A DNA stretch of 36,561 nucleotides from the IMG/VR virus record IMGVR_UViG_3300042356_001680, positions 1 through 36,561 of that record; one strand, 5' to 3'. Both the position numbers and the translations under genes were made by a program. Positions 1-11,533 of the stretch are shown here, in pieces. The notes beneath the pieces were generated by a model. The model saw only the letters and a list, made by a program, of their open reading frames with translations. It was not told where the DNA came from and did not search any database. The first letter of the stretch is position 1. Each line of letters begins with the position of its first letter. Source of the stretch: a virus.

Positions 1-38
1 ACGAACGCAAATTGTCACTCGTGCGTAACGAAGGCTAA
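1..38 (+). CDS. 3' end of an upstream gene (cut by window edge)
   Basis: Only the last codons are in the window. The frame beginning at base 3 reads ...KLSLVRNEG and stops at TAA 36-38. That stop is part of the -10 hexamer of the next promoter. The ParA-like gene at 4508 ends in the same way (...NLSVVRNGN, stop inside the -10 of the following promoter), which is the main reason to think this fragment is a real gene end. Its function cannot be judged from so few residues. Confidence 0.4.
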   Translation, partial: ERKLSLVRNEG

Positions 39-41
39 GGT
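12..41 (+). promoter_or_regulatory. Family promoter 1 (leaderless)
   Basis: First of 21 copies of a 30-bp element on the + strand: a TTGTTA-like -35, an 18-bp spacer with an invariant CGTAA at spacer positions 7-11, and a TAAGGT-like -10. Here TTGTCA is at 12-17 and TAAGGT at 36-41. The ATG at 48 lies 6 nt after the -10, where transcription should begin, so the mRNA is predicted to be leaderless. Confidence 0.85.
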
Positions 42-47
42 AAAGAC

Positions 48-227
48 ATGGAAACAGCAAAAGCATTTATTATCGTCACTTGGTTCTTGGTCAAGTGCGC
101 AGGCGTGGGAATATTCACAGTCGGCGCATACACCACCATTCAATGGGCTAGGAGAAATATCGCCTTCTTCACTTACGAAGAAGAAGATACAAATTCACCC
201 GAATGGATTAGCAAGCACTACGGATAA
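48..227 (+). CDS. Small single-TM protein, unknown function
   Basis: A 59-aa protein. Residues of about 6-32 are hydrophobic and would form one membrane helix, followed by an Arg pair (WARRN) and an acidic tail (YEEED), so a short cytoplasmic C-terminus is likely. The start is fixed by promoter 1: ATG 6 nt past the -10, with no Shine-Dalgarno sequence. A structured untranslated stretch ending in a terminator follows the stop. I do not recognise the family. Similar tiny membrane proteins are common in phage early regions. Confidence 0.75.
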   Translation: METAKAFIIVTWFLVKCAGVGIFTVGAYTTIQWARRNIAFFTYEEEDTNSPEWISKHYG

Positions 228-235
228 AGTGAACC

Positions 236-390
236 ACTAGGCTCGCAATGATACCCGAGTAAGAGTGTCGTAGTCGGCATCGCCTAGTCACTCACAACAC
301 AGCGACAGCGCAATAGTTCTCGCTCCCAGTTTGTCGCTGTACTGGTAGAGCAGAAAAAGAAAGAGTCATCTTCGGGTGGCTTTTTCTTTT
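236..390 (+). ncRNA. Candidate structured RNA ending in a terminator
   Basis: No ORF of useful size lies here, but three hairpins follow one another. ACTAGGC (236-242) pairs with GCCTAGT (282-288). ACAGCGACA (299-307) pairs perfectly with TGTCGCTGT (332-340). A long UUCG-tetraloop terminator occupies 354-390. It could be a small RNA processed from the mRNA of the upstream gene, or a structured 3' UTR. No promoter of the family directly precedes it. Confidence 0.4.
354..390 (+). terminator. Intrinsic terminator with UUCG loop
   Basis: A-rich arm (354-372) pairing with a T-rich arm (377-390), with two or three G-T wobbles and a C-TTCG-G tetraloop; the 3' arm itself is the T tract. It is A/T-symmetric, so it could stop transcription from both sides. 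Confidence 0.8.
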
Positions 391-419
391 GCCCCATGCG
401 GGGCTACGACTGGTGTCAA

Positions 420-435
420 TGTTTCACGTGAAACA
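420..435. promoter_or_regulatory. parS: parS site 1 (canonical 16-bp ParB-binding palindrome)
   Basis: TGTTTCACGTGAAACA, an exact match to the consensus chromosomal parS bound by ParB/Spo0J-family proteins. Flanking bases extend the perfect palindrome to 20 bp (418-437). Its right edge touches the -35 of promoter 2 (437-442), so ParB loading or spreading from here would cover that promoter. Confidence 0.85.
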
Positions 436-436
436 T

Positions 437-466
437 TTGTTACTCGCCCGTAACGGCTAGTAAGGT
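437..466 (+). promoter_or_regulatory. Family promoter 2 (leaderless, abuts parS)
   Basis: TTGTTA at 437-442, spacer core CTCGCCCGTAACG, TAAGGT at 461-466. The ATG at 473 is 6 nt downstream. A TTG at 467 is in frame but would precede the predicted transcription start. Confidence 0.87.
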
Positions 467-472
467 TTGGGT

Positions 473-769
473 ATGACATCAACAGCAACATTCCCACACA
501 AATCACACAACCCACTCCCTTCGGGGATTGGAACATTCAGCGTTCTAGAAAACGGCTCAATGATTATCTACCCATCAAACTCGTCAGCCATTGAGAGCGT
601 TCACTGGATTTCCCAAACTGGTTCACTCGCTGTCAGGTACGCCAACAACAGCACCCACTACTACTACCAAGATGTCCCAGCCACCGTGGTGTTCCACCTA
701 CTGGTCGCTGACAGTTTCGGGAAGTTCATCAACACCCACATCAAGCCGAACTACAAGGTTCTCTCCTAA
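473..769 (+). CDS. KTSC-domain protein 1
   Basis: A 98-aa protein. About residues 33-95 match the KTSC domain pattern: SSAIESV, a short strand pair (LAVRYANN..HYYYQDVP), then VVFHLLVADSFGKFINTHIKPNY. The domain is small, is named after a C-terminal domain of some lysyl-tRNA synthetases, and occurs alone in many phage and bacterial proteins without a proven role. It is a paralogue of the gene at 1614, sharing the SFGKF.N.HIKPNY end. Start chosen from the leaderless promoter. It is preceded by parS site 1 and followed by two GC-rich hairpins. Confidence 0.8.
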   Translation: MTSTATFPHKSHNPLPSGIGTFSVLENGSMIIYPSNSSAIESVHWISQTGSLAVRYANNSTHYYYQDVPATVVFHLLVADSFGKFINTHIKPNYKVLS

Positions 770-784
770 GACCCCCCACAGAGA

Positions 785-819
785 CCCCACCAACCCTCGG
801 ACACGACAGGTTGGTGGGG
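785..819 (+). terminator. Hairpin with conserved 13-nt loop, copy 1
   Basis: CCCCACCAACC (785-795) pairs perfectly with GGTTGGTGGGG (809-819) around the loop CTCGGACACGACA. The stem after the other KTSC gene (1930-1964) has the same loop but a different, still perfectly paired, stem. It is followed by CTTTGG only, so termination may be weak. Confidence 0.6.
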
Positions 820-839
820 CTTTGGGCTGTCCAGCCCCA

Positions 840-869
840 CCCCTTCGGGAGCCCCGGCTCCCGAAGGGG
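840..869. terminator. Perfect 14-bp GC-rich hairpin
   Basis: The 14-base arm at 840-853 pairs with 856-869 around a 2-nt loop. The hairpin contains the recurring GAGCCCCG octamer (849-856). No T tract follows, so it may be an RNA-stabilising or rho-type barrier rather than an intrinsic terminator. Confidence 0.5.
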
Positions 870-884
870 TGTTGAGTTCGTAAC

Positions 885-914
885 TTGTTAGTCGGTCGTA
901 ACGCGTGATAAGTT
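885..914 (+). promoter_or_regulatory. Family promoter 3 (leaderless)
   Basis: TTGTTA 885-890, spacer core GTCGGTCGTAACG, TAAGTT 909-914; ATG at 921 after 6 nt. Confidence 0.87.
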
Positions 915-920
915 ATTTAT

Positions 921-1169
921 ATGAACAGCGAAACAAACACCGACCACCTCCCTCATTTCTGTGGAGATAACTGTATGTTGGAAGCCGAGTCTGTCGGTTT
1001 CTTTACTGGTGATGATTGGGTAAATACCGAGCAAGAGTTCACCCACGAAAACCCACATTGCGATTGGTGTGGCGAGTCAGATGATGACAATGAGCCATAC
1101 GAAGATGATGCGTGGGCAGACCACCAAACCCTTGTCGGTATCGGTCACGGTGATGATGAGGATTACTAA
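921..1169 (+). CDS. Acidic Cys-containing small protein
   Basis: An 82-aa, strongly acidic protein. It carries CGDNC at about residues 15-19 and HCDWC at about 48-52, then a run rich in Asp and Glu (ESDDDNEPYEDD). Two CxxC-like pairs could bind zinc, but spacing is not that of a family I know. It is a single-gene cassette bounded by promoter 3 and the terminator at 1182. The leaderless ATG has no Shine-Dalgarno sequence. Acidic small phage proteins are often DNA mimics or host-protein binders; nothing here decides between these. Confidence 0.7.
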   Translation: MNSETNTDHLPHFCGDNCMLEAESVGFFTGDDWVNTEQEFTHENPHCDWCGESDDDNEPYEDDAWADHQTLVGIGHGDDEDY

Positions 1170-1181
1170 CCTCTGATAGGG

Positions 1182-1207
1182 GAGGGGAAACCTTCCCCTC
1201 TTTCTTT
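1182..1207 (+). terminator. Intrinsic terminator
   Basis: GAGGGGAA (1182-1189), loop ACC, TTCCCCTC (1193-1200), then TTTCTTT. A perfect 8-bp stem. Confidence 0.8.
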
Positions 1208-1283
1208 GCCTGAGCCCCGTCTCCGGTATTAGCTAGTATCAATAAGCAACTGTACGAACGTACGTACGGGGCTACAAACCAAC

Positions 1284-1313
1284 TTGTTACTCGGCCGTAA
1301 CCCCAGGTAAGAT
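1284..1313 (+). promoter_or_regulatory. Family promoter 4 (leaderless)
   Basis: TTGTTA 1284-1289, spacer core CTCGGCCGTAACC, TAAGAT 1308-1313; ATG at 1320 after 6 nt. An in-frame GTG at 1314 would lie upstream of the predicted transcription start. Confidence 0.85.
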
Positions 1314-1319
1314 GTGGGT

Positions 1320-1496
1320 ATGGAAAAAACAGCGACCATCCCATACGCCCTTCTATTGGAGGCCTACCAGGCAGCCACATACAGGGCGTACGAAGACCCC
1401 CAGACTTTTTACACTGGGGAACGACCACACTCAGAGAAACTGGTTGCCCAGTTGGAAGAGTTCATTGACCAAGACGACAAGTACAACCAGGAGTAA
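1320..1496 (+). CDS. Small hypothetical protein
   Basis: A 58-aa hydrophilic protein (MEKTATIPYALLLEAYQAA...), mostly predicted helical with several Tyr and Glu residues. It has no signal, membrane segment or motif I recognise. It is a one-gene cassette between promoter 4 and the strong hairpin terminator at 1529. The start follows the leaderless rule. Confidence 0.65.
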   Translation: MEKTATIPYALLLEAYQAATYRAYEDPQTFYTGERPHSEKLVAQLEEFIDQDDKYNQE

Positions 1497-1528
1497 TTAC
1501 CGGGGTCACTGGCAGCAATGCTGGTGGC

Positions 1529-1570
1529 CCTACTTACTCGGGAGCCCCGACTCCCGAGTAAGTAGGTTTT
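1529..1570 (+). terminator. 16-bp stem terminator
   Basis: Arm 1529-1544 pairs perfectly with 1551-1566; the loop CCCCGA is part of a GAGCCCCG octamer. It is followed by TTTT, and promoter 5 begins only 8 nt later, so it insulates the two cassettes. Confidence 0.85.
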
Positions 1571-1577
1571 CCCCAAC

Positions 1578-1607
1578 TTGTTAGTCGTGCGTAACTGGTG
1601 ATAAGTT
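1578..1607 (+). promoter_or_regulatory. Family promoter 5 (leaderless)
   Basis: TTGTTA 1578-1583, spacer core GTCGTGCGTAACT, TAAGTT 1602-1607; ATG at 1614 after 6 nt. Confidence 0.87.
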
Positions 1608-1613
1608 GAATGT

Positions 1614-1913
1614 ATGAACACAGCGACATTTGAAACAACACTCAATAACCAACTTCCTTCGGGCAATGGGGTATTCCACATCACCAAGTATGCGATTACC
1701 TTCTTACCGAAAGAATCATCAGCCATCACCGAGGCTATGTACTTCCCCGAAGACAACACGCTCTCCATCACCTACAAGGGTGGGGCAAGTTACTTCTACA
1801 AAGAAGTTCCTGCCTTCGTGGTGTTCAACCTGATGGTTGCCGAAAGTTTCGGCAAGTTCGTGAATGAACACATCAAGCCAAATTACAGATTCCTCAAAAA
1901 CATCTACCTATAA
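1614..1913 (+). CDS. KTSC-domain protein 2
   Basis: A 99-aa protein with the KTSC pattern over about residues 35-95: SSAITEAMYFPEDNTLSITYKGG, YFYKEVPAFVVFNLMVAESFGKFVNEHIKPNY. It shares both the N-terminal LPSG.G.F segment and the C-terminal block with the gene at 473, so the two are duplicates that have diverged at many positions. The 3' hairpin was duplicated too, with the loop conserved. Function unknown; KTSC proteins are small and probably bind another protein or a nucleic acid. Leaderless start. Confidence 0.8.
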   Translation: MNTATFETTLNNQLPSGNGVFHITKYAITFLPKESSAITEAMYFPEDNTLSITYKGGASYFYKEVPAFVVFNLMVAESFGKFVNEHIKPNYRFLKNIYL

Positions 1914-1929
1914 GACCCCCAACGGATTA

Positions 1930-1969
1930 CCCCACTCGCCCTCGGACACGACAGGCGAGTGGGGTTTTT
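1930..1969 (+). terminator. Terminator with conserved 13-nt loop, copy 2
   Basis: CCCCACTCGCC (1930-1940), loop CTCGGACACGACA, GGCGAGTGGGG (1954-1964), TTTTT (1965-1969). Compared with copy 1 at 785, the inner stem differs on both sides yet stays fully paired. Confidence 0.85.
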
Positions 1970-2003
1970 CGTCCCTGAGCCCCGGGTCGTACTTGAGACA
2001 CAA

Positions 2004-2019
2004 TGTTTCACGTGAAACA
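2004..2019. promoter_or_regulatory. parS: parS site 2
   Basis: An exact TGTTTCACGTGAAACA; flanking bases make a 24-bp perfect palindrome (2000-2023), the longest of the three. It lies 13 nt upstream of the -35 of promoter 6. Confidence 0.87.
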
Positions 2020-2032
2020 TTGTTTGTGTAAG

Positions 2033-2062
2033 TTGTTACTCGCCCGTAACAGACGGTAGGGT
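2033..2062 (+). promoter_or_regulatory. Family promoter 6 (leaderless, between two parS sites)
   Basis: TTGTTA 2033-2038, spacer core CTCGCCCGTAACA, TAGGGT 2057-2062; ATG at 2069 after 6 nt. parS sites 2 and 3 flank it, 88 bp apart start to start. Confidence 0.85.
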
Positions 2063-2068
2063 GTGTGT

Positions 2069-2368
2069 ATGAAAACAAACAGCGAGCAGAATGTTTCACG
2101 TGAAACATTTGAGCGAATCAGTGAAGCGGCCGAAGAATTGCGTAACGCACTCAAAGCCTTGAACCCAGAGACAGGGCAACTACCCTCCTACTCAAACCCA
2201 TACCCACGAGGTTGGGAATCATCGTGGGACGTGGCTCGACCATGGGACGACACGACAATTAGCAATGCCATCCACTACGCATCTTCTCTCGTTCTCGACT
2301 ACGGATGGGAACAAGAGATAGAAGAAAAGCAAGCAAAACTTGACGAGTTCAACAAGGAAGAGGAGTGA
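2069..2368 (+). CDS. Hypothetical protein with parS inside its 5' end
   Basis: A 99-aa soluble protein. Its first 15 codons contain parS site 3, read as NVSRETF. A helical stretch follows (about residues 12-30, ISEAAEELRNALKAL), then a Pro/Trp-rich middle (YPRGWESSWDVARPWDD) and a charged C-terminal helix (EQEIEEKQAKLDEFNKEEE). I do not recognise the family. Because a ParB site lies on each side of its promoter, it is a good candidate for ParB-dependent control. It overlaps the next gene as TGATG. Confidence 0.75.
   Translation: MKTNSEQNVSRETFERISEAAEELRNALKALNPETGQLPSYSNPYPRGWESSWDVARPWDDTTISNAIHYASSLVLDYGWEQEIEEKQAKLDEFNKEEE
2092..2107. promoter_or_regulatory. parS: parS site 3 (inside a coding sequence)
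   Basis: A third exact TGTTTCACGTGAAACA, with a 20-bp perfect palindrome (2090-2109). It starts 23 nt after the start codon of the gene at 2069 and is in frame within it. Confidence 0.85.
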
Positions 2369-2652
2369 TGGAATACATCGACGAACCAAAAGTCATCAAG
2401 CGAGCCAAGACCGAGAAGCCAAAGCAGAAAACCAAGTACAAGGTCAGGGCGTGGGTCGAGGACTTGATGGAGACCCCAAACAAATGGGCCGTCTATGCCC
2501 ATCAGCCTCTCACCCGACAGGGCATGATGAACGCCTACAGTTACATGGACGGATACAAGAGACGCTACTCCCACATTGAGTGGGCAATCTCGAAAGAAGA
2601 GAACTCCTATGCAATCTGCGGCCGATACACACCGACCGAGGAATCACAATGA
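2368..2652 (+). CDS. Basic hypothetical protein
   Basis: A 94-aa protein that starts at the ATG overlapping the upstream stop (TGATG), with AGGAG just before it, so translation is probably coupled. The N-terminal third is Lys-rich (VIKRAKTEKPKQKTKYKVR); the rest is compact with Trp, Tyr and Met (NKWAVYAHQPL, MNAYSYMDGYKRRY, YAICGRYTP). It could bind nucleic acid, judging only by charge. No named domain recognised. Confidence 0.7.
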   Translation: MEYIDEPKVIKRAKTEKPKQKTKYKVRAWVEDLMETPNKWAVYAHQPLTRQGMMNAYSYMDGYKRRYSHIEWAISKEENSYAICGRYTPTEESQ

Positions 2653-2684
2653 AGAAGAGGAACGGGGCTTCCCCTTTTCGGAAA

Positions 2685-2714
2685 TTGTTAGTCATGCGTA
2701 AGAAGAAGTATTAT
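2685..2714 (+). promoter_or_regulatory. Family promoter 7 (leaderless, most diverged)
   Basis: TTGTTA 2685-2690, spacer GTCATGCGTAAG..., -10 TATTAT 2709-2714, ATG 2721 after 6 nt. The spacing is exact and CGTAA is kept although the -10 is unusual for the family. It helps decide the start of the gene at 2721. Confidence 0.75.
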
Positions 2715-2720
2715 GGGATT

Positions 2721-3146
2721 ATGAAATCAGCAGAACTCCTCGCCCATGACCAACTCCAATTCTCACTTGACAACGACCCAGACTGCTTTGACAAAGCAAA
2801 AGCAGAACTCTATGGGATTACAGAACAAGAGCAATTCGTAAGGCTCGCTTGGGCACTTGATGTGTACGACCTGCTTGAGTCCTCATACAACTTTGAGAAC
2901 TTTGTGGGCATCTCGGTTTACACGACAGGTTGGGCTTCTCCACTCAATGAAGACGGTGAGGTGGATTGCGCACCGTCTGAACACCCAGAGCGTAAGCGTG
3001 TCTCGGTCATCACGACCATTACTGCCGAGGGTCGTGGCTCTGCTCTCGCCTTCGCAGACGAGGAAGAAATCATGACCGACCCCGGCACTGCTTCTGGACA
3101 ACTCGCAGACGCTATCGCAGACTGCTGGATTAGGTCTAAGGCATGA
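2721..3146 (+). CDS. Paralogue of the 5535 protein, GWASPLNEDG family
   Basis: A 141-aa soluble protein. Its central block TGWASPLNEDGEVD.APSEHPERKRV corresponds to SGWAAPLNDDGSIDGAPSQHAQRRRV in the gene at 5535. Both also share an N-terminal E.L.HD helix and a C-terminal TASGQLADA / ATGSLAEA end. The biochemical role is unknown. The start is taken at 2721 because promoter 7 ends 6 nt before it. An in-frame ATG at 2649 overlaps the previous stop (ATGA) and could give a longer, translationally coupled form with a basic N-terminus (KKRN...RKKKYYG). Confidence 0.72.
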   Translation: MKSAELLAHDQLQFSLDNDPDCFDKAKAELYGITEQEQFVRLAWALDVYDLLESSYNFENFVGISVYTTGWASPLNEDGEVDCAPSEHPERKRVSVITTITAEGRGSALAFADEEEIMTDPGTASGQLADAIADCWIRSKA

Positions 3147-3244
3147 AACGCAACGCCTTGGAGCTTCTCATACTCTCCCTTATTACCATCAGCGCAGTCA
3201 CTGTCTTTTGGTATCTCCTAGACCTGCTGTTCAGAATTATCTGA
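3143..3244 (+). CDS. 33-aa single-TM peptide
   Basis: ATG overlaps the previous stop (ATGA), then MKRNALELLILS... and a continuous hydrophobic stretch to the stop at 3242. One membrane helix is expected, with positive charges only at the N-terminus. Its size and coupling suggest a genuine small membrane peptide made with the upstream protein. The role is unknown. Confidence 0.55.
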   Translation: MKRNALELLILSLITISAVTVFWYLLDLLFRII

Positions 3245-3262
3245 CCTGAGCCCCGATGGGGT

Positions 3263-3345
3263 GACAGGGGACGGGGCTACCCCTGTCCACTTGGTTGCGC
3301 TCGCAACTACTTCCCTCGCAATAGTTGCGCGCTCAACTACTTATC
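3263..3345. repeat. Intergenic hairpins and TTGCG/CAACTACTT repeats
   Basis: GACAGGGG (3263-3270) pairs with CCCCTGTC (3280-3287), enclosing CGGGGCT. Next come two related stretches, CGCAACTACTTCCC and GCTCAACTACTTATC, each near a TTGCG inverted repeat. They separate the 2069-3244 cassette from repeat copy 1 and promoter 8. Termination is likely but there is no clean T tract. Confidence 0.4.
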
Positions 3346-3390
3346 TAATGGTGGGGGGCAGAGGGCTATTGAGGGGGTTGCTTTTTATTT

Positions 3391-3405
3391 GACGGTGGTG
3401 GATGA
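3391..3405 (+). repeat. GACGGTGGTGGAWGA repeat, copy 1
   Basis: Nine copies of this 15-bp sequence lie between 3391 and 18794, all in the + orientation. This copy (W = T) sits in an intergenic space 8 bp upstream of the -35 of promoter 8. Confidence 0.85.
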
Positions 3406-3412
3406 GTTGAAC

Positions 3413-3442
3413 TTGTTACCAGCCCGTAACGGTGGCTAAGTT
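3413..3442 (+). promoter_or_regulatory. Family promoter 8 (leaderless)
   Basis: TTGTTA 3413-3418, spacer core CCAGCCCGTAACG, TAAGTT 3437-3442; ATG at 3449 after 6 nt. Confidence 0.86.
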
Positions 3443-3448
3443 GGTGGC

Positions 3449-3898
3449 ATGACGAAAGCACTTTTCATTCCAGCGACAGGCGAACCACGCACCATTACTC
3501 TCCCAAAGGAGAACGCTCACACGGTCATTCATGACCTAATCGGTGGGTGGTTTGATTGTGTCTCATTGGCACAGGGAGCAGTCGCCATGTATGTCCATGA
3601 CGAAGGCTTGCTTATTGGGCTTGAACCCAATGTCACGGCTACCGTTCTCTACGGCAACCCCATCGCAGGAGATGTGTTGCTTGTCGGCACACTCAACGAC
3701 AAGGGCGAGCGTGACGGATACGACTACGACCTACCTGACTTGTTCTTCTCTGCCGACTTATTCGCACGAGTAATGATTGTGAATAACGAAGAAGCGAACC
3801 GAGAAATGCTTGCCGAGGAGATTAGCAAAATGGACTTCACTCCAAAGGTCATGTCATTGACTGACGATGAGTTCAACGCATGGATTGGGAGCAAATAA
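3449..3898 (+). CDS. DUF3846-like protein
   Basis: A 149-aa protein. The first about 100 residues follow the DUF3846 pattern seen in many phages: an N-terminal strand with a PATGEPRTITLP loop, HDLIGGWFDCVSL, then AVAMYVHDEGLLIGLEPNVTAT and a DVLLVGTLND strand. The remaining 45 residues are helical and acidic. DUF3846 has no established function. It is first in a three-gene cassette (3449-4442) held together by TAATG overlaps and read from promoter 8. Confidence 0.68.
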   Translation: MTKALFIPATGEPRTITLPKENAHTVIHDLIGGWFDCVSLAQGAVAMYVHDEGLLIGLEPNVTATVLYGNPIAGDVLLVGTLNDKGERDGYDYDLPDLFFSADLFARVMIVNNEEANREMLAEEISKMDFTPKVMSLTDDEFNAWIGSK

Positions 3899-4242
3899 TG
3901 TTTGAGGACATTCAGCCCCTTGCCCAACTTGAACGAGACTTCACCAAGTTAGAACTGTCCGTAATCATTGAAGCGTTGATACTGTTCCGTAGCAGTGGAG
4001 TACGACCCGACTTTGATTCCATTGACCCTGACACGGTGACTCTTGAAACGCTTGACGAAATTGACATTCCAGTCAAGACAATGACCGAGGAAGATGAAGA
4101 AGCAATAAACGAAATGACAATGCTGTTCATGGCAGGGTTTGCTCAGATTATTAGCATTGAACACGAACTTCTTGAAGAAGCGTACGACAAAGGAGCGAAC
4201 GCTCTTGTGTCGGAAATCTCAGACTTCTTGAAGGAGCAGTAA
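3898..4242 (+). CDS. Acidic helical hypothetical protein
   Basis: A 114-aa protein whose ATG overlaps the upstream TAA (TAATG), so translation is probably coupled. It is rich in Glu, Asp and Ile and looks mainly alpha-helical (LERDFTKLELSVIIEALILF; EDEEAINEMTMLFMAGFAQII). The hydrophobic patches are short and amphipathic, so I expect a soluble protein rather than a membrane one. No family recognised. Confidence 0.7.
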   Translation: MFEDIQPLAQLERDFTKLELSVIIEALILFRSSGVRPDFDSIDPDTVTLETLDEIDIPVKTMTEEDEEAINEMTMLFMAGFAQIISIEHELLEEAYDKGANALVSEISDFLKEQ

Positions 4243-4442
4243 TGAAACACTATGTAGATGACATTGTCGGAAAGACCATCGCAAAGGTCACGAGCCTCAC
4301 TGCCGATGAAATCAAAGAGTTCATGTGGTATTGCGACCCAGTAGAAACGACAGTGATTGAGTTCACCGATGGTTCTACTATTGTTGTAATGGCAGGCCCC
4401 GAAGGCAATGGCCCGGGTTTTCTCGACTATGTATGTATGTAG
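4242..4442 (+). CDS. Small conserved-type phage protein
   Basis: A 66-aa protein coupled to the upstream gene by TAATG. The pattern GKTIAKVTSLTADEIKEFMW...TTVIEFTDGSTIVVMAGPEGNGPGFL resembles a family of short phage and bacterial proteins of unknown role that have GK.I..V..LT.EE and FTDG....EGN.PG motifs. It would form a small beta-rich fold. The cassette ends after it, with an inverted repeat TCGGG..CCCGA near 4453-4469. Confidence 0.68.
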   Translation: MKHYVDDIVGKTIAKVTSLTADEIKEFMWYCDPVETTVIEFTDGSTIVVMAGPEGNGPGFLDYVCM

Positions 4443-4471
4443 AAAAAGAGAGTCGGGGCTCAGCTCCCGAT

Positions 4472-4501
4472 TTGTTAGTCGTGCGTAACGCACAGTAAGG
4501 T
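4472..4501 (+). promoter_or_regulatory. Family promoter 9 (leaderless)
   Basis: TTGTTA 4472-4477, spacer core GTCGTGCGTAACG, TAAGGT 4496-4501; ATG at 4508 after 6 nt. Confidence 0.88.
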
Positions 4502-4507
4502 GGAGAC

Positions 4508-5080
4508 ATGAACAAGATACAAGTATCAGCACGCAAGGGTGGACTAGGAACAACTACGGTTGCCTGCTCTATCGCACTTACCTATTCACGCCTTCACCCA
4601 ACACTCAAAATTGGGTTAGTCGATAAGTCACGATTCAACGACTGCCTATCGGTCATGGGGCTCAACCCTCAATCACCGAGCCTTCATGGCGTTACCATTA
4701 TCAACAAAGAGACAGACGGCTACGATGTTCTCATCGTAGATGCTGGAGTTACTGACGAACTAGACCCTGACGCAATCATTGTCAATGTCGTTCGCAACGA
4801 ATACCTGTCAATGAGAGCAGAGACGCTGGTGAACCTCAGCAATGATTACACGGTGGCCCTAATCAACACAGAGAACGCTCTCAATGCGAAAGATGTTTCC
4901 CATGTTGTGAGGTCAGAGGTTTCAGTATTCCCACTCACGGCACAGATGAGCAGAGCCATTGACGCTGGAATGTTCACTTCACGATTTGAGCAACTAGGTA
5001 ACGAATGGGCAGACAAATTGGTCGAGAGCCTTGCGTTCAGGAATGGTCACAACTTGTCAGTCGTGCGTAACGGAAACTAA
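4508..5080 (+). CDS. ParA/MinD-superfamily-like protein with altered P-loop
   Basis: A 190-aa protein. Residues 10-17 are KGGLGTTT, the deviant Walker A of the ParA/MinD/TadZ group. The signature Lys10 is present, but the usual second lysine (GKTT) is Thr15. Residues 34-39 give KIGLVD and 72-80 YDVLIVDAG, the Walker B strand with Asp78. A missing P-loop lysine is known in TadZ/CpaE-type proteins, so ATP turnover may be weak while nucleotide or DNA binding remains possible. At 190 aa it is shorter than a typical ParA. It lies 2.4 kb from the nearest parS site; no ParB gene is visible. The last codons and stop lie inside promoter 10. Confidence 0.75.
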   Translation: MNKIQVSARKGGLGTTTVACSIALTYSRLHPTLKIGLVDKSRFNDCLSVMGLNPQSPSLHGVTIINKETDGYDVLIVDAGVTDELDPDAIIVNVVRNEYLSMRAETLVNLSNDYTVALINTENALNAKDVSHVVRSEVSVFPLTAQMSRAIDAGMFTSRFEQLGNEWADKLVESLAFRNGHNLSVVRNGN

Positions 5081-5083
5081 GGT
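5054..5083 (+). promoter_or_regulatory. Family promoter 10 (leaderless, overlaps upstream gene)
   Basis: TTGTCA 5054-5059, spacer core GTCGTGCGTAACG, TAAGGT 5078-5083; ATG at 5090 after 6 nt. The whole element up to the TAA lies in the ParA-like reading frame. Confidence 0.86.
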
Positions 5084-5089
5084 AGAGAC

Positions 5090-5374
5090 ATGGAAACAGA
5101 CACAAACACACTCAACGAATACAACGAACTCCGTATTGGCGACATAGTTGGCGATACAGGGCGAATGGTAATCGCCTACACAAAGCGTCATGACCGTGTT
5201 GTCGGTGACTGCTACGCCACTTGGGTAGCGATTTGCGTAGACGAAACAGCGTTCCACCCTTACGCTGTTTGGACTGTCGTGGCTCGCCCTAATGGGTGGC
5301 TCGCCGAGTCGGGCGATTACTGCTCAACACTTGAGAAAGCATTAGTCGCCTACAAAGAACGTGGGGGCGAGTAG
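5090..5374 (+). CDS. Hypothetical protein
   Basis: A 94-aa protein with alternating strands: LRIGDIVGDTGRMVIAYTKR, YATWVAICVDETAF, YAVWTVVARPNGWLAESGDY. It is rich in aromatic residues and probably a small beta fold, ending in a short helix (LEKALVAYKERGG). No membrane segment or known catalytic motif. The start is set by the leaderless promoter 10. It is a single-gene cassette followed by a terminator-like hairpin at 5375. Confidence 0.68.
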   Translation: METDTNTLNEYNELRIGDIVGDTGRMVIAYTKRHDRVVGDCYATWVAICVDETAFHPYAVWTVVARPNGWLAESGDYCSTLEKALVAYKERGGE

Positions 5375-5400
5375 AGAGAAAGGGCTCTAGCTCTTTTTCT
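5375..5400 (+). terminator. Probable intrinsic terminator
   Basis: GAGAAAGGGCT...AGCTCTTTTTCTC with a CTAG-containing loop and a T-rich 3' arm; the pairing is imperfect in the middle. Confidence 0.5.
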
Positions 5401-5444
5401 CCCACTGAGCCCCGGCACTCTTCCTGCCTGCACCGGATAGCGGG

Positions 5445-5464
5445 GCCCCACACGACAATGGGGC
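5445..5464. terminator. Short hairpin with ACACGACA loop
   Basis: GCCCC (5445-5449) pairs with GGGGC (5460-5464); the loop is ACACGACAAT. The ACACGACA loop is shared with the two KTSC-gene hairpins. It lies 5 nt upstream of promoter 11. Confidence 0.4.
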
Positions 5465-5468
5465 AGAC

Positions 5469-5498
5469 TTGTTAGTCGTGCGTAACGCAAACTAAGTT
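5469..5498 (+). promoter_or_regulatory. Family promoter 11 (leadered)
   Basis: TTGTTA 5469-5474, spacer core GTCGTGCGTAACG, TAAGTT 5493-5498. No start codon lies 6-7 nt downstream; the ATG is at 5535, behind GAAAGGGAAA, so a leader of about 30 nt with a Shine-Dalgarno sequence is predicted. Confidence 0.85.
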
Positions 5499-5534
5499 GG
5501 TTCTTGTAACAACGACCCCACGAAAGGGAAACCA

Positions 5535-6005
5535 ATGACAACACTCACCGAAATAGCAACCGAGGCTGAACTCTTTGTTCACGACTTCTTGGGTGCGTTC
5601 ACCAATGAACAAGACAGCCTGTGGATGAGCGAGGCTCACCTGCTTGTTGTTCGTACCGAGAATGACGGAGTGACAGTTGAGCCTGTATCCTCTCACCCTG
5701 ATGTTTACGAACTGATTGACGAAACGATTGCCGAGACACCGTTCTCTGTTCGTTCCTCTGACATTCTTGCCGTAGTCACTTCGGGTTGGGCTGCGCCCCT
5801 CAATGATGACGGTTCTATTGACGGTGCGCCTTCACAACACGCCCAGCGTCGCCGTGTGCGCCTCTGTGCCTTCGTTCGCCGTAGTGACCTTACTATGGCA
5901 AGCATTATCCGTTTCGGTGATACTGACGAAGTGAACATTGACGCAGGTAGCGCAACTGGCTCACTTGCCGAGGCAATGCTCTCGCTTGGTGACGCAGGAA
6001 AGTGA
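5535..6005 (+). CDS. Paralogue of the 2721 protein, GWAAPLNDDG family
   Basis: A 156-aa soluble protein. Residues of about 75-115 carry VTSGWAAPLNDDGSIDGAPSQ and QRRRVRLCAFVRR, matching the gene at 2721. The N-terminal half is helical (ATEAELFVHDFLGAF) and the C-terminus ends ATGSLAEAMLSL. The role is unknown. The duplicate differs in expression design: this copy has a leader and a Shine-Dalgarno sequence (GAAAGGG), the 2721 copy is leaderless. Coupled to the next gene by GTGA. Confidence 0.72.
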   Translation: MTTLTEIATEAELFVHDFLGAFTNEQDSLWMSEAHLLVVRTENDGVTVEPVSSHPDVYELIDETIAETPFSVRSSDILAVVTSGWAAPLNDDGSIDGAPSQHAQRRRVRLCAFVRRSDLTMASIIRFGDTDEVNIDAGSATGSLAEAMLSLGDAGK

Positions 6006-6226
6006 TAAATAATCACTACCGTTTCTACAAGTCGGTATGGTTGGGGAGGGTTGTCGCCCTCCCCACTACCGACCTGTACAAGGCAGTCACCGGAATGTTC
6101 TACGAGACTGATGACCTTGACCTATCCAATGCCATTACCGACCTTGCTTATGCTGAACTAACCAAGCGTGGCGAAATGAGACCTCGGGGCTCAGCCACGC
6201 TTGCGAGACTTGTTAGTCGTCCGTAA
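6002..6226 (+). CDS. Hypothetical protein, GTG start
   Basis: A 74-aa protein. It starts at GTG overlapping the upstream TGA (GTGA). The sequence is basic at the N-terminus (INNHYRFYKSVWLGRVV), then LPTTDLYKAVTGMFYETDDLDLSNAITDLAYAEL, probably helical. The last 17 bases, including the stop, run into promoter 12, and the stop TAA is the one inside the promoter's CGTAA. Not recognised; a moderately secure call resting on the overlap and codon pattern. Confidence 0.58.
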   Translation: MINNHYRFYKSVWLGRVVALPTTDLYKAVTGMFYETDDLDLSNAITDLAYAELTKRGEMRPRGSATLARLVSRP

Positions 6227-6239
6227 TAGAAACTAAGGT
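6210..6239 (+). promoter_or_regulatory. Family promoter 12 (leaderless, overlaps upstream gene)
   Basis: TTGTTA 6210-6215, spacer GTCGTCCGTAAT..., TAAGGT 6234-6239; ATG at 6246 after 6 nt. Confidence 0.85.
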
Positions 6240-6245
6240 AATCCC

Positions 6246-6671
6246 ATGGAAACAAACACACCTATCGCCACTGGCGAACTTACCAATTCATGCACCTGCC
6301 TCACCTATGAGGAAGACGGCGAAACAATGTCAATTGACACCGAGTACGGTTCTACCTGCTACGGAGACTGTTGGGACTTCGCTGTTGAAGACTTTGCAAT
6401 GATTACCGAGGAACTTCGTAACTCTAACGAAACTGACTGGTGGAAGGTTGAAGACTTACGCCTATGGAGTGACAATGTCTCAGGGTACTTCCACGCCAAT
6501 ACAGTCGCTGACCTGATTGAAGGCATGACAGTCCGTAGCGACTGGCGTATGACTTACAAGGTATTTGGTGACCGTATTGAGTATTCTCTCAGTCACCACG
6601 ATGCGATGGGTAGCGCAAGCACCCTGCGCACCGTCTCAGACGATGAGCGTGAAGACTTGGGGCTCTACTAA
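6246..6671 (+). CDS. Acidic hypothetical protein upstream of WhiB
   Basis: A 141-aa acidic protein. It has a Cys cluster near the N-terminus (NSCTCLTY at about residues 15-22, then STCYGDCWDF at about 36-45) followed by a Trp-rich helical part (ETDWWKVEDLRLW) and a C-terminal strand region (MTYKVFGDRIEYSLSHHD). The four or five cysteines could bind metal. It is coupled to the WhiB gene by TAATG, so the two are made together and may act together. Family not recognised. Confidence 0.7.
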   Translation: METNTPIATGELTNSCTCLTYEEDGETMSIDTEYGSTCYGDCWDFAVEDFAMITEELRNSNETDWWKVEDLRLWSDNVSGYFHANTVADLIEGMTVRSDWRMTYKVFGDRIEYSLSHHDAMGSASTLRTVSDDEREDLGLY

Positions 6672-6919
6672 TGAGCATGGCACTGTACGAACGGAATTGG
6701 GCTGAGCAAGCAAACTGTAAAGACATGGATAAGGCTCTCTTCTTTCCTGCCTCAGTAAGGGAACTGAAACAAGCCAAGCAAGTTTGCTCAACCTGCCCTG
6801 TCTCTGCCGACTGCCTGCAGTATGCAACCGACAACACACTTGAGTACGGAGTGTGGGGAGGACTAGGGGAGAGTGACCGTCTCAGGTTGGCGAGAGACGC
6901 CAGGCGTGCAGGGCTCTAA
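6671..6919 (+). CDS. WhiB-family Fe-S transcription factor 1
   Basis: An 82-aa protein, normal for phage WhiB-like proteins. The four cluster ligands are C16, C39, C42 and C48 (NCKDMD...VCSTCPVSADC), followed by GVWGG at 60-64 and a basic C-terminal tail (RLRLARDARRAG). WhiB proteins carry a [4Fe-4S] cluster, bind region 4 of the primary sigma factor and change promoter choice. Known mycobacteriophage members (for example WhiBTM4) alter host division or superinfection. The family is essentially confined to actinobacteria and their phages. It overlaps the upstream gene (TAATG). Confidence 0.93.
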   Translation: MSMALYERNWAEQANCKDMDKALFFPASVRELKQAKQVCSTCPVSADCLQYATDNTLEYGVWGGLGESDRLRLARDARRAGL

Positions 6920-7027
6920 CTACCCCCTGGAGCCCCGGCCCGACTCTGAGCCGGGAAAGTGGCGAGACGAAACGGATAAATCTATCCACGTGCGCGTGAC
7001 AGCCGGCCACGGAGCTTCCCTTTATAT

Positions 7028-7042
7028 GACGGTGGTGGATGA
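7028..7042 (+). repeat. GACGGTGGTGGAWGA repeat, copy 2
   Basis: W = T, intergenic, 4 bp upstream of the -35 of promoter 13. With the next bases the core reads GGTGGATGACAAC. Confidence 0.85.
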
Positions 7043-7046
7043 CAAC

Positions 7047-7076
7047 TTGTTAGCCGTCCGTAACGACTAGTAAGGT
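7047..7076 (+). promoter_or_regulatory. Family promoter 13 (leaderless)
   Basis: TTGTTA 7047-7052, spacer core GCCGTCCGTAACG, TAAGGT 7071-7076; ATG at 7084 after 7 nt. An in-frame GTG at 7075 overlaps the -10 and is excluded. Confidence 0.85.
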
Positions 7077-7083
7077 GGCAGAC

Positions 7084-7551
7084 ATGGGATTAGACCAATA
7101 CTTATACGCAAAAAACTACCTTTCTCCTATGGAATGGAGAGGGCAGGAAATGACCGACACTTTCAACGCTGTTGCTGACGCAATTGGCGTGAGGGACTTC
7201 ATGGACAAGGACTTACCTTCCATCCAATGCCAAGTCAAAATTGGCTACTGGCGAAAGGCGAACGCCATTCATGACTGGTTCGTACAGAACTGTCAAGACG
7301 GTAACGACGACTGCCGTGAGGCTTATGTACCTATCGAGAAACTGGAAGAACTTCGCACAGTTTGTAAAATGGTTCTAGGTAACCACGCCCTCGCTAGCGA
7401 ACACCTTCCAACTACATCGGGCTTCTTCTTTGGTAGCACCGACTATGACGAGTGGTATTACAAAGACCTTGAATTGACCGTGGACATTATTGACAATGCT
7501 CTCTCTAAGGTCTCTGACGCTTGGACTTTCGCCTATCAGAGTTCGTGGTAA
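7084..7551 (+). CDS. Conserved phage protein (GLDQYLYAK family)
   Basis: A 155-aa protein. It has the layout of a phage family of unknown function that starts MGLD.YLYAK and contains IGYWRKANAIHDWFVQN, DCREAYVPIEKLEEL, LPTTSGFFFGSTDYDEWYYKDLELT. The strongly conserved YWRKAN.IH.WF and FFFGS..YDEWY blocks suggest an enzyme or binding pocket, but no role is established. Start from the leaderless promoter. A 2-nt gap separates it from the next gene, so they share a transcript. Confidence 0.78.
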   Translation: MGLDQYLYAKNYLSPMEWRGQEMTDTFNAVADAIGVRDFMDKDLPSIQCQVKIGYWRKANAIHDWFVQNCQDGNDDCREAYVPIEKLEELRTVCKMVLGNHALASEHLPTTSGFFFGSTDYDEWYYKDLELTVDIIDNALSKVSDAWTFAYQSSW

Positions 7552-7553
7552 TC

Positions 7554-7757
7554 ATGGCTCTGAACTTGAAAGAAAGTACCTTTGACTGGTTCGTCTGTGA
7601 TTGTGGAAATAATCCACACCTGGACGGTTTCGAGACGTGCTTGAAAGACGGAACAATTGTCTATCCGACGCCCGACGAATGGGATGGAATTCACTACATC
7701 TGTGAACGCTGTAATTCTGTTTACAACTCCGACACGATGGAAGAGGTGGCCGGGTAG
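7554..7757 (+). CDS. Putative zinc-ribbon small protein
   Basis: A 67-aa protein. FVCDCGNNPHLDGF in the first third and YICERCNSVYN in the last third give a CxC plus CxxC arrangement with one more Cys (ETC) between them, as in treble-clef or zinc-ribbon proteins. It starts 2 nt after the previous stop and has no strong Shine-Dalgarno sequence, so coupling is likely. Function unknown; probably protein or nucleic-acid binding. Confidence 0.65.
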   Translation: MALNLKESTFDWFVCDCGNNPHLDGFETCLKDGTIVYPTPDEWDGIHYICERCNSVYNSDTMEEVAG

Positions 7758-7794
7758 CTCCCGGTGCGGGGCTCGCCCAAGCCCCTACGCAAAC

Positions 7795-7824
7795 TTGTTA
7801 CTCGTCCGTAACGCAAACTAAGGT
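7795..7824 (+). promoter_or_regulatory. Family promoter 14 (leadered)
   Basis: TTGTTA 7795-7800, spacer core CTCGTCCGTAACG, TAAGGT 7819-7824. The ATG is at 7863, so a leader of about 32 nt is predicted; it contains CTACTAGAAAGAAATAGGG just before the start. Confidence 0.86.
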
Positions 7825-7862
7825 GTTCTTATCCACCCCAACTACTAGAAAGAAATAGGGAA

Positions 7863-8285
7863 ATGGCACAAAAACCAATCAGCGTAAAGGTCAGCACTAA
7901 GAAAGTGATTGACGCATTAGAAAAGGCTCTCGCAGAGCGTAAGAAAGAAGTTGCCGAAAACGAAAAGGCTCGGAAAGACCACGAAAAGGCTGTCAAGGAC
8001 TTCCAAGACACTCTTGCCGAGATGTTTCGTTCAGGGAAAGGCAAAGTAACTAGCGTCAGCAAGTCTCACGCCTATCGCTACAACGAGGAAAACAACAAGT
8101 ACGAAATCACCGTTGAGTTCCCTGCTTCTGTAAAAGCACCGAAAGAGCCTGAAATCAACTCTGCCGACTGGTCACTCAAATCAGACATTGAGGAACTGGA
8201 AAACGCTGTCGCAGTCCTGAAAATGACTGACGAGGAAACCATCAACACCAGCACCTACAAGGGTGTGGCTCGCTTCATCAAATAA
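7863..8285 (+). CDS. Coiled-coil hypothetical protein
   Basis: A 140-aa soluble protein. Residues of about 10-60 are a charged helix with heptad character (IDALEKALAERKKEVAENEKARKDHEKAVKDF), expected to form a coiled coil. A beta-rich middle (YRYNEENNKYEITVEFPASV) and another helix (DIEELENAVAVLKM) follow. Its leader carries the CTACTAGAAA box and AGGG, so it belongs to the leadered class and may be strongly expressed. No family recognised. A GNRA-loop hairpin follows at 8292. Confidence 0.75.
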   Translation: MAQKPISVKVSTKKVIDALEKALAERKKEVAENEKARKDHEKAVKDFQDTLAEMFRSGKGKVTSVSKSHAYRYNEENNKYEITVEFPASVKAPKEPEINSADWSLKSDIEELENAVAVLKMTDEETINTSTYKGVARFIK

Positions 8286-8291
8286 GGTTGA

Positions 8292-8307
8292 GGGGGCGCA
8301 AGCCCCC
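8292..8307 (+). terminator. GGGGGC-GCAA-GCCCCC hairpin
   Basis: Six G-C pairs with a GCAA (GNRA) tetraloop directly between two genes of one transcript. No T tract; more likely an mRNA stability element or attenuator than a full terminator. Confidence 0.45.
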
Positions 8308-8337
8308 AATACCCCCACCCCACCGAGGAGGTGAATA

Positions 8338-8508
8338 ATGGGACAGTATGAAATGGCAAATGCCATAATCAAAGAACTTCTGTCGGGAGACATAGAAGAA
8401 CTTGAGGAACTTACTGCAGACTTTCTTCTAGACATGATGGGAGTTTGTGGAGTTGAGTTAGCAGTTGGAGACAAAGCCTCTCACGCATTTATCAACCAAA
8501 AGGGTTAG
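8338..8508 (+). CDS. Small acidic helical protein
   Basis: A 56-aa protein preceded by a strong Shine-Dalgarno sequence (GAGGAGGTG, 7 nt before the ATG), one of the best in this arm. The sequence is acidic and helical (MANAIIKELLSGDIEELEELTADFLLDMMG), ending VGDKASHAFINQKG. It probably shares the transcript of promoter 14. Not recognised. Confidence 0.66.
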   Translation: MGQYEMANAIIKELLSGDIEELEELTADFLLDMMGVCGVELAVGDKASHAFINQKG

Positions 8509-8528
8509 TTCGTTTCCATCAACGAAAG

Positions 8529-8554
8529 AAAGGGTAGGAGAAATCCTGCCCTTT
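8529..8554 (+). terminator. 11-bp stem with GAAA tetraloop
   Basis: Arm 8529-8539 (AAAGGGTAGGA) pairs with 8544-8554 (TCCTGCCCTTT), one T-G wobble, GAAA loop. Only a short T/C run is in the 3' arm. It probably ends the 7863-8508 transcript. Confidence 0.55.
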
Positions 8555-8595
8555 CCCTATGCCGAGCCCCGGTCCGGAGGCTGCATATTTCGAAC

Positions 8596-8625
8596 TTGTT
8601 ACCCGCCCGTAACGCAGAATAAGAT
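8596..8625 (+). promoter_or_regulatory. Family promoter 15 (leaderless)
   Basis: TTGTTA 8596-8601, spacer core CCCGCCCGTAACG, TAAGAT 8620-8625; ATG at 8633 after 7 nt. Confidence 0.86.
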
Positions 8626-8632
8626 TGTCCAC

Positions 8633-8944
8633 ATGAGCACAGATTATCAACTCCACTGGGACGCCTTAGCAAACTTTGGCGAATCCACACCAATAGAAAT
8701 TCGCTTTCATGCGAATACCACCCAAAAACATTTCCAACTGCTAGCAACTGCTGGGACCAATGGTCAAATTTACTACACACTCCACTACAACCCTCGTAGC
8801 AACTACTCAATGGCACTTTCGTACATTGTTGGTCACGATAAAAGTGACGTTACATTGCCCATGAAGAACTACTCAGGATGGCAAAATGACGTGCTTTCTT
8901 GGGTTATCAGTATGAAGCATTACACAGTGGACCAAGTCTTCTAA
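8633..8944 (+). CDS. Hypothetical protein
   Basis: A 103-aa protein (MSTDYQLHWDALANF...). It is beta-rich with many Tyr, His and Asn (IEIRFHANTTQKHF, GQIYYTLHYNPRSNYSMALSYIVGHDKSD) and ends with a Trp-containing helix. No motif recognised. The start is set by the leaderless promoter; longer upstream in-frame starts would precede transcription. Coupled to the next gene by TAATG. Confidence 0.68.
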   Translation: MSTDYQLHWDALANFGESTPIEIRFHANTTQKHFQLLATAGTNGQIYYTLHYNPRSNYSMALSYIVGHDKSDVTLPMKNYSGWQNDVLSWVISMKHYTVDQVF

Positions 8945-9204
8945 TGAAGGCAAAAGACATTGCCAGACACATGTCTGCCTTGGACCCCGACGAAGAGCTC
9001 GTCTGTGTGTGGTTCACAAAAGACGACTTTCCCCTAGGTATAAAGGACGATGGTGACTACGAGACACTTGCTCCGATGGAGTGGGATGATGTAGTCTCTA
9101 CATTTGAGAACGAAAAGTGGGCCAACCCTCTCAATAGTTCGTGGGCAGATGTCCATCAAGACATTTATAAACTAGTAGGAGAAAAACTCGGTGCCTTGGT
9201 CTGA
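8944..9204 (+). CDS. PDEEL-type small protein 1
   Basis: An 86-aa acidic protein. It begins MKAKDIARHMSALDPDEELVCVWFTKDDFPL, which matches the start of the gene at 10762 (IIKQIIEMLSRYSPDEELCILWWDKPQF). This helix, PDEEL turn and W-containing strand recur in small phage proteins of unknown function. It is followed in both places by another small gene in overlapping frame, so the two-gene unit may have been duplicated. Coupled through TAATG. Confidence 0.7.
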   Translation: MKAKDIARHMSALDPDEELVCVWFTKDDFPLGIKDDGDYETLAPMEWDDVVSTFENEKWANPLNSSWADVHQDIYKLVGEKLGALV

Positions 9205-9463
9205 AGAGGAAACAAAGAAAGCGTTCATGAAAAACGCGGTCTCGTTCGTACTGTCTGAATATCCCCGGGATGTTGACATCATGGATATCCCAACACTGGT
9301 TGAGTATGTAGACAAACGCATCCTGGTATGGGAACCATTCGTCCGGCGTTCCGGGATTGAACTGGCCGACATAATTGACCAGTTATTTGAAATGAACTAC
9401 TCGACTTACCTGCAGTCAACCGGGGGCGGGGCTCCCGAGTCCTCTGACCACACCGAGTGGTGA
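9191..9463 (+). CDS. Hypothetical protein, GTG start
   Basis: A 90-aa protein. GTG at 9191 has AGGAG about 9 nt upstream and overlaps the previous gene by 14 bp. It is helical (EEETKKAFMKNAVSFVLSEYP; MDIPTLVEYVDKRILVW; GIELADIIDQLFEMNYSTYL) and ends in a Gly-rich tail. It contains a CGGGGCTC octamer near its 3' end. A weak resemblance to the gene at 10997 (both have a helix ending in a hydrophobic DIIDQLF / KIINEMF block) fits duplication of the unit. Confidence 0.6.
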   Translation: MPWSEEETKKAFMKNAVSFVLSEYPRDVDIMDIPTLVEYVDKRILVWEPFVRRSGIELADIIDQLFEMNYSTYLQSTGGGAPESSDHTEW

Positions 9464-9530
9464 CGACCACGCTGCGCGTTTATTCAGAAATCTAAGATTT
9501 CAAGAGACTCACCCCAGACAATTATTACCT

Positions 9531-9545
9531 GACGGTGGTGGATGA
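9531..9545 (+). repeat. GACGGTGGTGGAWGA repeat, copy 3
   Basis: W = T, intergenic; its end is 4 bp from the -35 of promoter 16, the same geometry as copy 2 with promoter 13. Confidence 0.85.
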
Positions 9546-9549
9546 GAAC

Positions 9550-9579
9550 TTGTTAGTCGTCCGTAACGAGAAGTAAGTT
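9550..9579 (+). promoter_or_regulatory. Family promoter 16 (leaderless)
   Basis: TTGTTA 9550-9555, spacer core GTCGTCCGTAACG, TAAGTT 9574-9579; ATG at 9586 after 6 nt. All 30 bases are identical to promoter 17, 220 bp away. Confidence 0.88.
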
Positions 9580-9585
9580 GGAGAC

Positions 9586-9768
9586 ATGAAGAAATTTACA
9601 CTCCGAGTAACAGAATCCATCAACCACGACTACGAAATTGAAGCAGAGACCGAAGAAGAGGCTCTCTCTATCTACTACTCGTACGACAATGACCAACTCA
9701 AGTCACTTGACCTTGACGGTCAATCAGAATGGGACACGCACCCATGGGAAATCACGGAATCGGACTGA
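9586..9768 (+). CDS. Small acidic protein
   Basis: A 60-aa protein: MKKFTLRVTES, then DYEIEAETEEEALSIYYSYD, a beta strand followed by a helix with EAETEEEAL, ending DTHPWEITESD. This strand-helix layout with an E.E.EEEAL motif recurs in tiny phage proteins of unknown role. Single-gene cassette; the next promoter's -35 begins 2 nt after the stop codon. Confidence 0.7.
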   Translation: MKKFTLRVTESINHDYEIEAETEEEALSIYYSYDNDQLKSLDLDGQSEWDTHPWEITESD

Positions 9769-9769
9769 C

Positions 9770-9799
9770 TTGTTAGTCGTCCGTAACGAGAAGTAAGTT
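9770..9799 (+). promoter_or_regulatory. Family promoter 17 (leaderless)
   Basis: TTGTTA 9770-9775, spacer core GTCGTCCGTAACG, TAAGTT 9794-9799; ATG at 9806 after 6 nt. An exact 30-bp duplicate of promoter 16. Confidence 0.88.
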
Positions 9800-9805
9800 G
9801 TTCTT

Positions 9806-10081
9806 ATGACACAGCACTACATCCGAATCCTTACCGAAGTCTCCTACCCCGAAGGTCCGACCTACGCCAAGTGGGATTACTTCTCTATCTCTGATGAGAA
9901 GTTGCCTGTGGAGTTCCGAGAGTTGCCCGACCCCGAGAAGTTCTACGACTTCCTGAATAACAACGGTTTCTGGGATAAGGGCTGGCAGGAAATCACCCCA
10001 GAGATTGACGCTTGGATTGACTTCCACCCCGACCAATGTGGGTTGCAAGACGAAATCGCCATAGAAGTCACTTATGTCTGA
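9806..10081 (+). CDS. Hypothetical protein
   Basis: A 91-aa acidic protein. The N-terminal half is a strand with aromatic residues (HYIRILTEVSYPEGPTYAKWDYFSI), followed by FYDFLNNNGFWDKGWQEITPEIDAWIDFHPDQCG and a final strand (EIAIEVTYV). A compact alpha/beta fold seems likely. Not recognised. Single-gene cassette between promoters 17 and 18, with no visible terminator. Confidence 0.68.
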   Translation: MTQHYIRILTEVSYPEGPTYAKWDYFSISDEKLPVEFRELPDPEKFYDFLNNNGFWDKGWQEITPEIDAWIDFHPDQCGLQDEIAIEVTYV

Positions 10082-10083
10082 AC

Positions 10084-10113: not shown

Positions 10114-10147
10114 AAACATTGTCCCCCCTACTAAAAAGGAACAAAAA

Positions 10148-11479: not shown

Positions 11480-11533
11480 CCACCCCAGAAACTATGACAC
11501 ACCCCTGGGGATTCTGTAATATTCGAATAAACC

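Follow-up and report, generated by a model that had tools for sequence, protein, structure and literature searches.

Chromosomal-type parS sites beside predicted leaderless promoters in a family of actinobacteriophages

The 36,561-nt stretch of viral DNA analysed here (the window; IMG/VR record IMGVR_UViG_3300042356_001680) opens with a promoter-rich region that holds three copies of TGTTTCACGTGAAACA, the 16-bp palindrome of chromosomal parS (Table 1). All three are exact and share the 20-mer AATGTTTCACGTGAAACATT, and no further parS was found in the window with up to 3 mismatches allowed. The symmetry of parS 2 extends outward to a perfect palindrome of 24 bp, ACAATGTTTCACGTGAAACATTGT. The initial annotation had read these palindromes as parS sites that bracket or abut promoters, and the exact 16-mers and their geometry confirm this. 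Its distances were also right for parS 2, which is separated by 13 nt from the -35 at 2033, and for parS 3, which begins 23 nt past the A of the ATG at 2069; parS 1, which it described as touching the -35 at 437, very nearly does so, ending 1 nt before that element.

Table 1. Coordinates of the parS sites, predicted promoters and genes in the window, and of parS sites elsewhere that are discussed in the text.
Feature	Position	Strand	Remarks
parS 1 (site A)	420..435	.	exact 16-bp palindrome; -53 to -38 of KTSC gene start
Predicted leaderless promoter	437..466	+	TTGTTA-18-TAAGGT, operator GTTAC-N6-GTAAC; 1 nt after parS 1
KTSC-domain gene, parS 1 promoter upstream	473..769	+	Pfam PF13619, E 1.1e-13
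Second KTSC-domain gene	1614..1913	+	Pfam E 6.2e-15
parS 2 (site B)	2004..2019	.	exact; -65 to -50 of downstream gene start
Predicted leaderless promoter	2033..2062	+	TTGTTA-18-TAGGGT, operator GTTAC-N6-GTAAC; between parS 2 and parS 3
99-aa gene, unknown function	2069..2368	+	parS 3 in codons 8-13; homologues in L005/L006
parS 3 (site C)	2092..2107	.	exact; +24 to +39 of leaderless 99-aa gene
Small ParA/MinD-like protein, 190 aa	4508..5080	+	profile matches, weak
WhiB transcription factor	6671..6919	+	Pfam Whib, E 2.5e-22
Longer-palindrome parS, Gordonia phage Luker	L266 988-1036, 1409-1457
Longer-palindrome parS, PatrickStar	L265 1961-1996
TGTTCCACGTGGAACA sites in Actinomycetota MAGs	L305 13086, 13156; L306 13481, 13552; L307 6820, 6869

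Thirteen promoters of one design occupy the first 12.4 kb of the window (12-12215). Each combines TTGTTA, an 18-bp spacer carrying an operator that reads GTTAC-N6-GTAAC or comes close to it, and TAAGGT, and the start codon follows after another 5-7 nt; judged by their predicted transcription starts, the mRNAs from these promoters should be leaderless. At the promoter between parS 2 and parS 3, TAGGGT is followed by 6 bp and then by the ATG at 2069. The second KTSC-domain gene has a promoter at 1578 that lacks parS, and its downstream terminator precedes parS 2. The same promoter design recurs in relatives of the window, with 25 copies in G003 (operator dialect TTGTCGG..aGGGGTGGG) and 15 in G005 (operator dialect TTGTAAGtCGTcCGTAGG). 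Compared across window positions 12-12215, L065, and L261 together with L260 (G003 114-141 kb), the three operator dialects, GTTAgTCGtcCGTAAC, GTCGGttagGGGTGGG and GTAAGtCGTcCGTAGG, align position by position, with one shared operator per phage. The specificity of the regulator therefore appears to have shifted between close relatives. Alongside the two KTSC-domain genes of the window, up to three homologous stretches lie at 127968-130240 of G003, and across both genomes some KTSC promoters carry parS while others do not.

The window, taken from IMG/VR, represents part of an actinobacteriophage genome of ~148 kb. In protein comparison its products map in order onto G003, a relative of 148,355 bp, and continue across the ends of that record, which is taken to be near complete because it has an exact terminal repeat of 127 bp. 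It encodes a terminase, a portal, an HK97-type capsid protein, a primase/helicase and a ribonucleotide reductase, and its primase is ~30% identical to those of Arthrobacter phages. The WhiB transcription factor of the window and a transglycosylase-like protein encoded in G003 indicate an actinobacterial host. G000-G005 (L038 and L065 being G004 and G005) were the only members of the family found in IMG/VR, and searches with two window proteins (593 aa and 99 aa) gave no significant cultured relatives. Rfam and tRNA searches of the window returned nothing. An HslV/proteasome-type peptidase is encoded at window positions 20555-21232 on the minus strand (phrog_1040, E 3e-22), with a metallophosphoesterase gene as its neighbour. 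We also considered whether the parS region lies near a replication origin and rejected the idea, as the cumulative GC-skew minimum of G003, at 52.6 kb, lies well away from the parS region (115-130 kb).

The parS sites of the window are not a product of chance. About 36561/4^16 = 8.5e-6 exact sites would be expected per window. As a control we searched all viral contigs of IMG/VR for a scrambled palindrome, TTGTTCACGTGAACAA, which has the same composition and core as parS, and found it in 5 stretches, against at least 120 for TGTTTCACGTGAAACA and at least 120 for the natural variant TGTTCCACGTGGAACA. In viral contigs each of the two natural parS types thus outnumbers the scrambled palindrome by a factor of at least 24, which is rough because some short contigs may be bacterial. 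Such sites also occur in cultured phages of Gordonia, Arthrobacter, Microbacterium, Listeria and Bacillus, among them phi29 (L289), which has four identical one-mismatch copies, TGTTTCACGTGGAACA, at 10445, 15903, 17243 and 18760. The Arthrobacter phage Oxynfrius and the Gordonia phage Luker are cultured actinophages in which parS is exact. In the Gordonia phage Luker and in PatrickStar, parS is centred in longer palindromes (~32-36 nt) that could form hairpins.

Within the family, parS is present in the same promoter-rich region in all six records. Site A, before the KTSC gene, is exact in the window and in G003 (127910) and has 1 mismatch in L004 and G002; G003 also has a duplicate with 1 mismatch (A2), upstream of a second gene of the KTSC type. 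Site B, which follows the second KTSC gene, is exact in the window, L004, L038 and L065, and in the latter two it has kept its place despite a different promoter dialect and a different downstream gene. Site C, within the 99-aa gene, is exact in the window, L004, G002 and G003, as it is in L005 and L006, while a further site, D, is exact in G002 and G003. In pairwise alignments the noncoding sites A and B stand out as islands of identity amid diverged flanks, and in the relatives parS still lies just upstream of the -35 although the operator sequence has changed. Since A and A2 are duplicates and the B sites of L038 and L065 are near copies, these placements amount to about three independent ones. 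This small number of independent lineages is all that speaks for chance or for neutral carry-over of host DNA; with so few sites expected at random, and parS kept in three lineages as its flanks diverged, we regard that origin as very improbable.

If the sites are read by ParB, the protein is likely to be that of the host. None of the six family records encodes an HTH_ParB protein, an AAA_31 ParA, a tyrosine integrase or a resolvase, and no repressor was identified in the phage. The only ParB_N protein, in G003, matches no Pfam parS-binding domain, and the PAPS-reductase gene nearby suggests that a role in DNA modification would fit it. The family thus lacks a detectable ParB with the parS-binding domain that would mark a cassette of the RedRock type and instead has parS without its own ParB, as in hitchhikers of the phi29 and SGI1 kind. 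A near-complete genome devoid of a parS-binding ParB, a canonical ParA and an integrase, together with an exact and conserved parS word and no detected phage ParB, makes binding by host ParB likely. One phage protein is a possible partner of the sites, namely the 190-aa ParA/MinD-like protein, which matches NCBIfam MinD_arch (E 3.7e-4), Pfam ParA (E 0.009) and phrog_164 (E 0.08) and aligns with actinobacterial ParA in hhalign (Prob 82). Its P-loop reads KGGLGTTT in place of KGGxGKT, with the lysine replaced; it is encoded in four of the six records (G000-G003; G003:132729-133295) and missing in G004 and G005, and its AlphaFold model (pLDDT 37.5) is too poor to interpret.

Freshwater Actinomycetota MAGs contain relatives of one phage gene, and five of five such MAGs lack the phage 16-mer, whether exact or with one mismatch. 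In three of them, two copies of the symmetric variant TGTTCCACGTGGAACA precede parA (Table 1). This group is thus probably not that of the host; otherwise its ParB would have to tolerate two changes.

Site C differs from the others in lying within codons, and the palindrome is indeed encoded within those for NVSRETF (2090-2110), as the initial annotation had stated. The 99-aa gene is real, given homologues in L005 and L006 that are 84-85% identical at the amino acid level and a pattern of 20 synonymous and 15 nonsynonymous codon changes relative to L006. At the codon usage of the phage, the chance of encoding NVSRET exactly as parS is ~0.0018, and the DNA word therefore probably matters or came first. 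The further proposal of selection on the DNA within these codons was not supported, as conservation at synonymous sites is not limited to the palindrome: between the window and G003, 19 consecutive codons (7-25) are all identical, and the palindrome covers just codons 8-13. The synonymous-site test therefore does not decide for or against selection on the palindrome, because the identical block exceeds it, because six codons would stay unchanged ~18% of the time at the 25% synonymous rate of the rest of the gene, and because only two independent lineages exist. In-gene parS sites of other actinophages are apparently read as DVSRET-type peptides in annotated genes (L267 3002, Arthrobacter Emotion; L269 1002, Microbacterium Antares; L270 1002, OneinaGillian).

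The noncoding sites lie directly beside predicted promoters. Across the family their centres fall at -45.5, -57.5, -50.5, -50.5, -50.5 and -74.5 relative to the start codon, so that they span -38 to -82 of the leaderless promoters, and they are always upstream of the -35, 1-30 nt away, across three promoter dialects. They have no common helical phase, and we therefore rejected the positions of a classical activator; sites that are always upstream of the -35 and unphased are more in keeping with blocking, with a clamp effect or with plain tethering. The looping that had been suggested was not borne out either, as helical phase differs between sites and the intragenic parS sites of Pseudomonas aeruginosa do not affect their neighbours. 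How far the placement departs from chance depends on the intergenic space. Only 2.05% of promoter-region positions have a -35 within 13 nt downstream, as both noncoding sites of the window do, whereas given the intergenic gaps (209 nt and 119 nt) a hand calculation yields p ~0.010 and ~0.135, combining to ~0.01 by Fisher's method and weakened further by terminators that occupy part of the gaps. Placement beside promoters is thus only moderately significant once intergenic space is considered.

Nor is it a property of viral parS at large. Among the 120 viral loci listed, sigma70-like promoters were found in 3.8% of the flanks of parS, compared with 3.1% of random positions, and we rejected a general link between viral parS and promoters; adjacency is therefore best seen as a trait of this phage family. 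A scan for the parS-promoter pattern gave mostly AT-rich coincidences and no family member beyond L038 and L065. The position beside promoters, in a phage that encodes a WhiB protein, might also suggest that a protein other than ParB, from phage or host (a WhiB or helix-turn-helix regulator, for example), reads the palindrome as an upstream operator. We consider this improbable, as all 16 bases are those of the bacterial centromere, viruses overall are enriched in natural parS variants and not in their scrambled neighbour, and one site lies inside a gene.

Our preferred explanation, to which we assign a probability of roughly 0.55, is that the family keeps parS as a small borrowed centromere and that the same sites locally dampen the adjoining promoters. 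In this view the actinobacterial host's chromosomal ParB would bind the three palindromes, load there as a CTP clamp and spread across the promoter-rich early region. The phage genome would thereby be coupled to the ParA/SMC machinery that segregates the host chromosome, which would help to position or retain it. From the sequence we infer ParB binding, a segregation benefit and promoter repression alike. ParB bound at the noncoding sites would also dampen the adjacent leaderless promoters, a proposal prompted by the span of these sites at -38 to -82. Partitioning as such would bring little gain to a lytic phage, and the lack of an identified integrase or repressor in this one counts against that half of the explanation.

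The regulatory half is plausible by analogy. In P. aeruginosa, ParB represses promoters beside the intergenic sites parS3 and parS4, while the intragenic parS1 and parS2 have no such effect (PMC5521831). The former resemble the noncoding phage sites in being intergenic and beside promoters, differing in that they are chromosomal, and they lend credibility to a regulatory role; the latter speak against one for site C. Plasmid RK2 offers a second model, in which KorB acting from OB and KorA acting at OA repress over long range, KorB sliding from OB and being locked at core promoters by KorA (PMC11790492). Like the phage, it combines sites for a ParB-family clamp with a core-promoter operator. 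Both RK2 proteins are plasmid-encoded, however, whereas the phage would depend on host ParB and on a putative operator-binding protein.

These two precedents raise the possibility that the sites are mainly regulatory, with host ParB as a KorA/KorB-like clamp co-repressor on phage promoters. ParB loaded at parS would be stalled at the promoter by a phage factor on the shared operator, and the promoters would thereby sense the host segregation complex. The noncoding sites 1-30 nt upstream of the -35 in all three dialects, and the family-wide operator in every promoter, speak for such a mechanism. On the other hand, parS adjoins just 2 of the 13 promoters in the window and 3 of the 25 in G003, spacing and helical phase vary, and site C lies within a gene. 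We place this account second to the borrowed centromere with local dampening and hold it only tentatively. The specific idea that the host segregation clamp is a transcription co-regulator, stalled at leaderless promoters by an operator-bound phage factor, seems to us doubtful.

Parallels for a borrowed centromere come from other mobile elements. Meijer and colleagues are said to have described, in 2005, parS-like sites in phi29 and Spo0J-dependent spore entrapment. Like the phage studied here, phi29 has several chromosomal-type parS sites without ParA or ParB, one of them within a gene (gene 15, endolysin). It differs in its sporulating Bacillus host and in its one-mismatch sites, which are not described as linked to promoters, whereas the present phage is an actinophage whose exact sites lie close against early promoters. 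The integrative element SGI1 hijacks the parABS system of IncC plasmids, and its parS mimics stabilise it (PMC10954446). As a mobile element lacking its own ParB, it likewise uses the ParABS of another replicon through parS mimics, but there the ParB is a plasmid protein and the effect was shown by experiment. Several sites per genome, multiplied by replication, might also titrate host ParB, disturbing host segregation rather than aiding the phage genome, and SGI1 displaces its helper in such a manner (PMC10954446). Such a decoy is quite improbable here, as the sites per genome are few and titration needs neither clustering nor conserved position. Among actinophages, the cluster A parABS mycobacteriophages such as RedRock also carry parS, but there ParA and ParB are phage-encoded and parS is built from eight direct repeats of 8 bp each (PMC7157519). 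In the literature searched, we found no description of host-type parS in actinophages.

Together, these data suggest that bacterial centromere sites are carried by many viruses, not by phi29 alone. If host ParB binds them, viruses would dock on the segregation machinery of the host without partition genes of their own, and parS type could help to predict the hosts of uncultured phages. Should the co-regulator reading prove true, early phage genes would be set by the ParB/CTP state of the host. The sites adjacent to promoters make ParB regulation of viral genes directly testable.
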